64,000 nucleotides of DNA from Clostridiales bacterium (GTDB lineage: Bacteria > Bacillota > Clostridia > Christensenellales > Aristaeellaceae). Each line of letters begins with the position of its first letter. Within the stretch, counting starts at the first letter, position 1. This document shows positions 57,611-61,082 of the stretch, one piece after another. The notes under the pieces were generated by a model. It saw nothing but the letters and a program-made list of their open reading frames with translations, was not told where the DNA came from and did no database searches. The DNA is taken from assembly GCA_022787165.1 (NCBI GenBank), contig JALFVL010000018.1, positions 1-64,000 on the forward strand. The letters run 5' to 3'. Made by a program: the position numbers and the translations under genes.

Positions 57611-57937
57611 TCACGTCTTGCGCAGGATTTCCCTGGGCGGCTCGATTTCATGGGCCAGGGTATGCTCGGTCAGCTCCGAAAGGAGCCGGAGCTTCCGGTT
57701 GAGCATGGGCCTCATGCAGTTGGGAACATGCTCCTGATGCGCTCGATGGATCGCGACGCATTCCCTGCAGTTGCCGTGATACCGGCAGGCCTTCAGGCAG
57801 GGGCAATGATCCCACCCGGCGTATTCCTGCCTGAATTGGGCGACGAATTCCTCCTGAAGCGCAAGCCCCTCCGCCCGGTCTCCCCGGTGAAAGGCGGCCA
57901 TCGCTTCCTTTTCCTTTTCGTTGTCATCGATTTTCAT
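57611..57937 (-). CDS. Small Cys-rich conserved protein
   Basis: 108 aa. An acidic, helical N-terminal half (MKIDDNEKEKEAMAAFHRGD) is followed by CPCLKACRYHGNCRECVAIH and VPNCMRPM, a C-x-C/C/C-x2-C/H/C set that fits a small zinc-binding domain seen in clostridial hypothetical proteins. ATG 57937 follows GAGGTG; an open frame to 58057 overlaps the liv remnant and is less likely. Function unknown. It lies between two decayed genes and may itself be in a relict region. Confidence 0.6.
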   Translation of the reverse strand: MKIDDNEKEKEAMAAFHRGDRAEGLALQEEFVAQFRQEYAGWDHCPCLKACRYHGNCRECVAIHRAHQEHVPNCMRPMLNRKLRLLSELTEHTLAHEIEPPREILRKT

Positions 57938-57992: not shown

Positions 57993-58457
57993 TTACATGC
58001 CCAGATATGCGCTGCGGACAGCCTCGCTGCTGAGCATGCTCTCTCCTGTGCCGTCAATCACGGTCTTCCCGTTCTTGATGACATAGGCGTAATCGCACAT
58101 TTCAAGCGTCTGCGTCACGTTCTGCTCCACGATGATGATGGTGATGCCCATTTGGTTGATCTCGCGGACAAAGTCAAAGACCTCCTCCACCAGCTTGGGC
58201 ATCAGGCCGAGGCTGGGCTCATCCAGAATGAGCAGCCGCGGCTCGCTCATCAGCCCCCGCGCAATGGCGACCATCTGCTGCTCTCCGCCGGAGAGGGAAT
58301 TGAACAGCGTCGTCTTTCCCGCGCCGTTCGGGCCCACCACGCCGACGATTTCGCCTTCTCTGGCCTCAAAGCTGATATCCTCGTTGGCGACAAGGCCGCC
58401 AAATGCCTTTGTCGCGTGCTCCACGCTCAAGATGGGCTTCGCGCCTTGAATGGTCAT
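57993..58457 (-). pseudogene. livG/livF: LivG-LivF chimera (branched-chain amino-acid ABC ATPase), internal deletion
   Basis: 154 aa in an open frame. Residues 1-55 read like LivG (LSVEHATKAFGGLVANEDIS; Walker A GPNGAGKTTLFNSLSG). Residues about 56-154 read like LivF from its signature motif on (SGGEQQMVAIARGLM, LLILDEPSLGLMPKLV, GITIIIVEQNV, DYAYVIKNGKTVIDG). The Q-loop and helical subdomain, about 90 residues, are missing, and two 235-255-aa proteins have become one of 154 aa. ATP hydrolysis is not expected. The junction is near 58285-58300. The start still overlaps the upstream gene as ATGA, as in intact liv operons. Confidence 0.85.
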
Positions 58458-59137
58458 GCCGCAGGCACCTCCTTTTTGGCAAAACGCTTTTTCAGCCTTC
58501 CAGGGATCGACAGTACCCCGTTGGGCAGGAAGAGAACAACCAGAATCACCAGCGCGCCGTAGATGATCAGGTCGATGCCCGTTCCCGTGCCGCCGAACCA
58601 GACGCGCGTATTCTGGGAGATATACGTCAGCACGGTTGCCCCGACGATCGGCCCGAACACCGTTCCGCAGCCGCCCATGACCGTGACCAGACAGATCATC
58701 AGCGAGATGGACAGCGTGCTGGAGGTATAGGGATCCACATACTGAATGTACTGCACGTACAGACTGCCTGCCAGGGAGGTGACCATGGCGCTCAGCGCAA
58801 AAGCCAGTGCCTTCGTGCGCGCCGTGTCGATGCCCACGCTCTCCGCCGCGTGCTCATTGCCGGAGATGGTGCGCAGCGCATAGCCGAAGCGGGAGGCGTC
58901 CAGCCACAGGGTAAACGCGATCAGCGCCACCACCACCGCCAGAACAATGTAGTAATAGATCACCTTGTCGCTGTTGGCGGAGAGCTGCAAATACATCCCT
59001 ATCATCAGGAATTCGCCCTGAGCAAAGCAAAGCAGCCCCATCACGCCCCAGATCAACGCAATTCCGATGGCGACCAGCGCGATACTGGAGCCATTGATAC
59101 ATCCCTCCACAAGGATTTGAGCAAGCTGAGTCCCCAT
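58454..59137 (-). pseudogene. livH/livM: LivH-LivM chimera (branched-chain amino-acid ABC permease)
   Basis: 227 aa. The first about 50 residues are LivH-like (LVEGCINGSSIALVAIGIAL, GLLCFAQGEFLMIGMYL). From about residue 60 the sequence is LivM-like (YYYIVLAVVVALIAFTLWLD, SRFGYALRTISGNEHAAES, QYVDPYTSSTLSISLMICLV, then a charged RLKKRFAKKEVP tail). Each parent has about 290-330 aa, so the second half of LivH and the first part of LivM have been lost with the frame kept. Junction near 58960-58990. A working liv permease needs both subunits, so it is probably inactive. Confidence 0.8.
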
Positions 59138-59245
59138 CCCGATTCGCCTCCTGATTGACTGTGCAAATCCCTCCGCAAAGCTCCGGTCTCGGATGCGAAG
59201 CGGCGGGATTTACCACATTTCGCCGGTCATGCCGGTCAGATGAAA

Positions 59246-59280
59246 GAAAACTGCCGCGTGCGGGCCTCCGCGCGCGGCAG
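59246..59280 (-). terminator. Hairpin after the liv binding-protein gene
   Basis: CTGCCGCG / CGCGGCAG stem with 14-nt loop, followed on the minus strand by TTTTC. It lies 10 bp past the stop of the binding protein and would reduce downstream expression, as is common after binding-protein genes. Confidence 0.65.
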
Positions 59281-59290
59281 ACCGTTGTGT

Positions 59291-60580
59291 TTACCGCTCA
59301 GACCAGGGGGTGTAGGGATAGACCACCTCGGCAGCGGCGCTTTCAAACGGATACACCGTCACAAACGCGCCGTCGATCAGCTGCGTGATGATGCCGCCCG
59401 CCAGCACGTTCTGGCCGGATTCGTCAAAGCGGATGCCGTTCCAGGGAACGATCAGCTGTCCCTCGTTGGCGACGTCCAGATTCTGAAGCGCTTCCTGAAC
59501 GGCGTAATTCTCGGTCGATCCGGCCGCGTCAAGCGCGTAGGCCAGAGCGAAGACCGCCGTGAAGGCCCGCGCGTAAGCGTCGTTCATGTCGGCGCCGGAG
59601 GCCACGTCGGAGACAAAGCCCTTCGATACCTGATACTCCTTGAACATGTCGTTCACGATCTTCACGTTAGGGTTGGTCACGCTCAGATCCAGCGCAAAGA
59701 GGTTGGTCGACAGGGTGTCGTTCATGTTGACCGCGCCGACGGTTTCCACGGTTTCGGTTGCGGTGAAGCCGGCGCGCTGGCCGATGAGCAGCTTTGGCGT
59801 CCAGTTCTGCTCCTTCATGGTGCGGTACAACAAGATGGCATCCGAGTTATAGCTGCCGCACATCAGAACATCCGCGTTGGCTTCCTTCAGCTTCATCACC
59901 TCTGCGGAGAGGTTCGTCGCGTTCTGGCTGTAGGAGATGTTTTCGACGATCTCAAAGCCGTATGCCGGCGCCTGCTCTTCAATCTGGACGCGCAGCTTCG
60001 CGCCGTATTCGGTATCCTCGTGGAACAGCGCCAGCGTGTGGATGTCAAGCCCCTTTTCATCCCGCAGGCTCGCCAGGAATTTGAACGTATCCTCGATAAA
60101 CGTTCCGTCGTGCGGCGTGGTGCGGAAGAACCACTCATAGCCGCGCTCCGTCAGATCCACGGAGGTGGAATCCGCGTTGATGAAGGGAATTTCGCTGCGC
60201 TCCGCCACGGTCGAGGCCGTCTTGGTGACAGCCGAATTGTAGGCGCCGATGATGACGTCCACGCCGACCTCCTCGATCAGGCGCTCCGCTTCAGACTGGC
60301 CAATCTCGGCGTTGCCCTGCGTGTCCGAAACGGTCAGCAGCAGCTTTCCGCCGTCAAGACCGGGGATGCCCACCCCGGCGGCAAAGGGAAGATCCAGCTC
60401 CGGATGCTCGTTGTTGATGATGTCCGTTGCCAGCTCGATGGCGAGCACATCCAGCTAGCCGATGGTGGCGACGTTACCGCTGAGCGGATAGAGAATGCCC
60501 ACCTGACAGTCTGCGGCCAGCGCCATGCACGGGGCGAGCAGCATGACCAATACCAGCAGCGAGGAGTACAGCTTCTTCAT
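59291..60580 (-). pseudogene. livJ: Liv-type amino-acid binding protein with in-frame amber codon
   Basis: Periplasmic-type leucine/isoleucine/valine binding protein (Peripla_BP_6). ATG at 60580 begins MKKLYSSLLVLVMLLAPCMA and continues CQVGILYPLSGNVATIG, then TAG at 60457-60455 (codon 42) where relatives usually have Gln or another residue, then LDVLAIELATDIIN in the same frame to the stop at 59291 (429 aa if read through). The remainder is well conserved (IGAYNSAVTKTASTVAERS; FINADSTSVDLT). A restart at the GTG at 60448 would lack the signal peptide. It is the first gene of the decayed liv operon. Confidence 0.85.
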
Positions 60581-60632
60581 GGGGATAACCGCCTTTCTCT
60601 TCCCTTCATCCATGATGAGCGAAGGTAAAATG

Positions 60633-60671
60633 AAAAAGCAATGAGGCGAAAATTCATTTCAACCTCATTGC
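60633..60671 (-). promoter_or_regulatory. Leader hairpin with T run (possible attenuator) of liv operon
   Basis: On the minus strand GCAATGAGG and CCTCATTGC (perfect 9 bp, 16-nt loop) are followed by TTTTT. The hairpin lies between the promoter at 60683 and the start codon at 60580, so it can end transcription early. No leader peptide rich in Leu/Ile/Val codons was identified. Confidence 0.6.
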
Positions 60672-60682
60672 TGTTGTCGGGC

Positions 60683-60711
60683 ATTATATCATCCCTTTGC
60701 GGGCCTGTCAA
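60683..60711 (-). promoter_or_regulatory. Consensus sigma-A promoter of liv operon
   Basis: TTGACA, 17 bp, TATAAT on the minus strand, a perfect match to the consensus, although the operon it drives is broken. Confidence 0.85.
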
Positions 60712-61082
60712 CACGGCTTTCTGACGGGCAGAAATTCAATTATACATGCCGACTTTATCAAAACAATATTTTTATGCAATATGATGTTTTTGGGGGTTGA
60801 TTTGAGAAATCGAACGAAATATTTCGTTCAATTTTTGACCGAAGAGCTTTGGAAAAAGCCCGCGAACGAAAAGCCTGATTAAAAGCGAATGAATATTGCA
60901 ATTTCTAAAATTTCATTATTGCGAAATCGAGCGGTTTCGCCGCGGGCTGCCCGGAAAGTGCAGCCCCTGGGGAAGGGCCGTCTGCGCCGTGTCCGGTTCA
61001 CGGGCAGTCCTCCATGGAATCAAGCGCAAGGGTCAGCTCGCAGTGAGCGCGCGCATGAGGCCCGGGGGCATATGAAGGCCAT
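60712..61082. other. Intergenic region, AT-rich, no gene seen
   Basis: The first about 210 bp (60720-60930) are markedly richer in A+T than the rest of the window and hold an 18-bp palindrome. The part from 60940 to 61082 is GC-rich with no open frame of note. No RNA gene or transposon end was recognised. Confidence 0.6.
60812..60829. promoter_or_regulatory. Candidate operator, 18-bp perfect palindrome
   Basis: GAACGAAATATTTCGTTC, perfect dyad without spacer. Partial copies (GAACGAAAAG at about 60863 and GCGAATGAA) lie within 60 bp. It is about 100 bp upstream of the liv -35 box. Confidence 0.65.

Follow-up and report, generated by a model that had tools for sequence, protein, structure and literature searches.

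An amber codon and two in-frame gene fusions in a probably recently inactivated Liv-type importer operon of a Clostridiales bacterium

Here we describe the remnant of a Liv-type importer operon, an ABC importer that we take to belong to the HAAT family, on the minus strand of a 64,000-nucleotide window of a Clostridiales genome (positions 1 to 64,000 of contig JALFVL010000018.1, assembly GCA_022787165.1). The sequence and its list of open frames reveal three lesions relative to intact homologues: an amber codon in the gene for the binding protein and two pairs of fused genes. Most probably this is a recently inactivated accessory operon, an ordinary young pseudogene operon. Inactivation is supported, at the level of sequence, by fusion halves that come from different families, an intact five-gene order elsewhere, the existence of other Liv-type operons and a neighbouring gene remnant. 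Against it stand the scarcity of other damage and the need for three lesions with only slight drift to have arisen in quick succession or under selection against a partial transporter. All of the lesions are known from one assembly, a draft of 42 contigs that is 90% complete and was probably derived from a metagenome. The locus would provide a clean, young example of operon death through in-frame internal deletion, and it carries a caution: automatic annotation would label the two fusions as short permease and ATPase genes.

Gene content and lesions

Judged from its sequence, the operon is arranged as livK-livH-livM-livG-livF and is placed between rhamnose genes and an arabinose-type operon (Table 1). 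A first-pass annotation of this DNA had described the three lesions and offered an interpretation; the observation as a whole is confirmed and the interpretation is partly supported. To these features we add a hydrolase remnant downstream and two hairpins.

Table 1 Features of the Liv-type operon remnant and its immediate surroundings
Feature	Position in window	Strand	Basis
Sigma-70-type promoter, TTGACA-17-TATAAT, TG before second hexamer	60683..60711	-	12/12 consensus
Terminator-like leader hairpin and U run	60637..60672	-	Leader z-score -4.0; inverted repeat I2
livK-type binding-protein gene with amber codon	59291..60613	-	Frames, PF13458, tblastn
Hairpin with U-rich tail between livK and permease fusion	59252..59279	-	z-score -2.6 (66-nt stretch)
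livH'-'livM fusion, 227 aa	58454..59137	-	PF02653 search, tblastn, alignment
livG'-'livF fusion, 154 aa	57993..58457	-	Family models, tblastn, alignment
108-aa open frame between fusions and hydrolase remnant	57611..57937	-	No Pfam or NCBIfam match
M20-type hydrolase 3' remnant, last 40-odd codons	57460..57592	-	Matches hydrolase open over 410 aa in a congener (G026:C3:170-1402)

The amber codon previously assigned to the binding protein is an in-frame TAG at 60455–60457 (minus strand), codon 53 of livK, with open frame on both sides: 52 codons upstream (60458–60613) and a 385-codon piece downstream that ends at 59291. The Pfam model PF13458 (periplasmic binding proteins) covers residues 25–328 of this 385-aa piece. 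A full-length secreted binding protein is not encoded; the open 3' piece begins past the leader region.

The permease genes had been described as joined in one 227-aa frame, and its halves match different families. Residues 1–49 align with LivH and residues 50 onward with the C-terminal half of LivM, the join falling directly after the LivH motif GEFLMIGMY. A tblastn search against the closest intact operon that we found (L035, see below) places residues 3–57 on LivH (56%) and 56–217 on LivM (57%). In Pfam the frame is BPD_transp_2 in two stretches, and in a PF02653 search of its own genome it appears as two pieces at profile positions 3–66 and 134–269. The losses comprise the greater part of LivH and the N-terminal half of LivM, leaving the operon without two full-length permeases.

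The ATPase genes, likewise reported as joined in a 154-aa frame, form a protein that aligns with LivG, through Walker A, from residue 1 to about 55 and with LivF, from the signature motif, over the remainder; on L035, tblastn places residues 9–59 on LivG (69%) and 51–154 on LivF (63%). The alignment sets the join between Walker A plus LFNS, on the LivG side, and SGGEQQ, on the LivF side, and Pfam matches the frame as ABC_tran in two stretches. Motifs that we take to be Walker A, signature and Walker B are present, the segment separating Walker A from the signature motif is gone, and two complete ABC ATPases are not found. The first-pass annotation had allowed that either protein might align along its full length to one known family; neither does. 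Both fusions retain their reading frame and, as it had noted, an ATGA coupling, an overlap at 58457–58454 of the permease fusion's stop with the start of the ATPase fusion.

Measured against the intact L035 operon, about 1.2 kb is missing at the livH/livM join and about 1.0 kb at the livG/livF join; these lengths are approximate because an intact copy of this very operon was not found.

Downstream, the hydrolase remnant matches its open counterpart in the congener at 74% over 42 residues and at about 80% over 134 bases of DNA, and family models match it below their cut-offs. That open gene adjoins a putative polar amino-acid ABC transporter, a label given by eye from the frames. The 108-aa frame encodes several cysteines and has partial matches only, in its own genome and in four congeners, one of them at a contig end.

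Relatives and distribution

The operon in L035 (JAQZBD010000092.1, a Herbinix metagenome-assembled genome) has five full frames in the order K-H-M-G-F, of 441, 283, 334, 240 and 235 aa. It shares with the window the gene order, the strand and all five families; the remnants of H, M, G and F are 54–66% identical to it, and K is 40% identical. The window departs from it in the amber codon of K and in having a single fused frame for each of the pairs H/M and G/F.

Of the 154 encoding stretches found by scanning GTDB genomes, the best 80 were retained. By a strict rule, under which a gene was counted as present if a frame covered more than 80% of the L035 protein, all five genes occur in 44 of these 80 loci and the other 36 miss at least one, which agrees with the earlier statement that five genes are the norm. 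Separate H, M, G and F frames were seen in 12 of the 13 loci inspected; the thirteenth (L122) has only a piece of K. The genome studied here itself encodes a second five-gene Liv-type operon (L144; K, H, M, G, F) and a further locus (L143) with H, M, G and F and no K within the 12 kb taken.

Some match to the 227-aa protein exists in all 29 genomes of the genus, its own included, and in the 28 others no close relative was found, the best match by E-value being 35% identical. At E ≤ 1e-30, matches within the family are confined to 2 of 300 genomes: its own and G079 (37%), in which H, M, G and F are each separate and full. At E ≤ 1e-50, the binding protein matches in 2 of 396 genomes of the order, one being its own. 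For this patchy spread, horizontal gain appears to be the simpler reading, with repeated loss as the alternative. The first-pass annotation had suggested looking for an intact operon in close relatives: none was found beside rhaM in the 8 congeners (of 16 with rhaM) from which about 4 kb or more downstream was taken, and the rhaM flank of one relative (L136) gave a weak ABC ATPase match only.

The earlier label of a branched-chain amino-acid transporter holds as far as 'Liv-type'. The named substrate is too strong, as no Liv model reached its curated cut-off: the LivK, LivH, LivM, LivG and LivF models match far below those cut-offs, which broken frames could hardly reach, and the intact L035 binding protein also falls below the curated LivK cut-off.

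Integrity of the assembly

An assembly error, in which the genome would contain an intact operon and the assembler would have dropped the two missing stretches, is in our view unlikely. The draft, probably metagenomic state of the assembly leaves room for such an error, and the two losses are similar in size and each lies between paralogous genes. The joins, however, are at non-equivalent positions of the paralogues (from PF02653 position 66 to 134, and from Walker A to the signature motif), and comparison with relatives suggests that few bases would be shared at the joins, which would be short for k-mer collapse. A search of the genome with the L035 stretches that correspond to the lost parts of LivH and LivG did not find those parts; the best matches, at 31% and 45%, lie in the genome's two further Liv-type operons. 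The other 12 PF02653 matches in the genome each cover nearly the whole profile, and the amber codon would require a separate error.

Other frames of the window that were compared with Pfam also argue against an artefact. Among 33 such frames scanned outside the operon, at least 80% of one or more Pfam families is covered in 29, so no general loss is seen; one covers a family in part and three have no match, among the latter the two short frames next to the fusions. Near full-length family matches were obtained for rhaB, rhaA, an aldolase gene and rhaM on one side and for GDSL hydrolase, aldolase and kinase genes on the other, with an L-arabinose isomerase at the edge of the window. The neighbouring loci had been called active sugar loci; their frames are intact, and 'active' is more than sequence can support.

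Age and origin of the lesions

For a comparison of conservation, L035 served as the intact reference, and the outgroups were ten further operons, or nine in the case of K; the alignment of the ATPase halves leaves out row L042_42_905. Similarity to the outgroups is about the same for the remnants as for L035, with differences in both directions. K of the window is lower against L036–L038 and L144 and higher against L039, L040 and L042, and the LivM part is lower for 9 of the 10 outgroups (for example, 61/172 against L040, compared with 73/172 for L035). Sites that are invariant among the outgroups are kept in the window at 17 of 17 positions in K, 6 of 8 in H, 12 of 15 in M (two of the three misses fall in a junction stretch that is misaligned in this comparison), 16 of 17 in G and 23 of 23 in F; intact L035 keeps 14, 5, 15, 16 and 23 of the same sites. 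The clearly lost residues are an E to Q at residue 175 in the LivM part and an I to V at residue 41 in the LivG part, and the LivH part has lost two invariant residues.

No second stop occurs in the 820 other codons of the remnants. With transitions weighted 2:1, this absence limits neutral change since inactivation to roughly 0.05 substitutions per site (95% bound). Clear excess divergence of the remnants was not observed, which fits recent inactivation without amounting to a sign of relaxed selection. Because conservation of the remnants is close to that of an intact orthologue, the decay seems recent, and the lesions would be young relative to the divergence of the operons; very recent decay was one of two options that the first-pass annotation had raised. 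It had also found it surprising that both frames were kept. They are, but the surprise is weaker than stated: both deletions would keep the frame with a chance of 1 in 9, so selection for the fusions is not required, and little elapsed time would account for the open frame across each join.

We suggest that the operon was acquired by horizontal transfer and that livK was inactivated by a point mutation, with internal deletions at two places (about 1.2 and 1.0 kb), each extending from the front part of one gene to the back part of its neighbour, both keeping the frame by chance; the lesions may have arisen in any order. The deletions may have formed between short chance repeats. Homeologous recombination between paralogues (H with M, and G with F) was considered and rejected, as the joins are at non-equivalent positions. 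Together, the lesions would abolish transport.

ABC nutrient importers also carry pseudogenes in Brucella, where all 29 pseudogenes of the BO inventory are in nutrient importers (PMC2821768). The likeness is that nutrient importers collect inactivating lesions; the difference is that the part of that report used here describes frame shifts and premature stops and mentions no pair of in-frame fusions. Among the records listed, titles and abstract openings on pseudogenes with fusions, liv genes and pseudogene decay gave no mention of this pair of fusions, which is no proof of absence in print.

Expression and possible function of the remnants

The promoter upstream of livK is, as had been claimed, a perfect consensus. 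The leader hairpin starts 10 bases past the -10 hexamer and ends in a U run, its z-score being that of the whole 97-nt leader. After livK, the minimum-energy structure of the second hairpin closes further pairs around its U-rich tail. Both hairpins look like terminators or attenuators in these structure predictions, and neither is listed by a simple terminator scan (5 sites listed compared with 3.7 expected). With hairpins after both the promoter and livK, the promoter alone says little about expression of the fusions, and the earlier hint that the remnants are expressed keeps its promoter and is weakened by the hairpins. Pseudogenes can be transcribed, for example in Sodalis (PMC7067036). A known riboswitch or leader RNA was rejected, the single Rfam match being far below the gathering score and on the opposite strand.

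It is very unlikely that the two fusion proteins are produced and function, whether as a reduced importer or otherwise. Their frames and translational coupling are kept, as are the three ATPase motifs, and AlphaFold2 models the 154-aa fusion with a mean pLDDT of 84 and a pTM of 0.80, albeit from an alignment of 15 full-length homologues. In the model the two parts resemble their parents, which is no demonstration that the fusion folds, and pLDDT drops below 50 at residues 54–57, the join. In ABC ATPases, the Q-loop and the permease-contacting part lie between Walker A and the signature motif, in the region lost here. Moreover, the binding protein is broken, hairpins lie upstream of the fusions and the only other match in the family, in G079, belongs to a locus with separate and full genes.

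Scarcely credible to us is a more specific form of this proposal, in which the coupled fusions would be expressed and kept, either as a minimal membrane ATPase of two proteins or as partners, dominant-negative or regulatory, of the genome's other Liv-type importers. If selection did keep the fusions, the minimum parts of an ABC importer would need rethinking; nothing here points that way.

Decoding of the amber codon to give full-length LivK is an exceedingly improbable reading, which we reject: TAG terminates only 1 of 38 window genes counted and the remainder of livK is open with its invariant sites kept, but none of the 48 tRNA matches in the assembly (ARAGORN, 31 loci; assembly 90% complete) has a CUA anticodon, so nothing seen reads amber, and the two fusions would stay unmended even if an unusual pyrrolysine tRNA had escaped the tRNA model or the incomplete assembly.

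Other remnants and the upstream spacer

Inactivation by partial gene loss, as favoured above, has parallels nearby. On the same contig, about 11 kb past the window, a gene for a KdpD-type sensor kinase is seemingly cut to a C-terminal piece (C2:74736–75203; L156 937–1404) that overlaps a TrkA-type gene on the opposite strand. Taken with the hydrolase tail, this piece indicates that genes other than those of the transporter have also lost parts. About 14 kb beyond the window lies a 577-aa frame (C2:77905–79638; L156 4106–5839), the start of which resembles what we take to be a serine recombinase.

The AT-rich spacer at 60590–61080 was considered as a repeated element and rejected: it has no second copy in the genome, its only further match there being an internal palindrome, and one congener contains a 30-base match. 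This spacer, upstream of the operon, includes a 28-bp near-perfect palindrome at 60807–60834, a possible operator.
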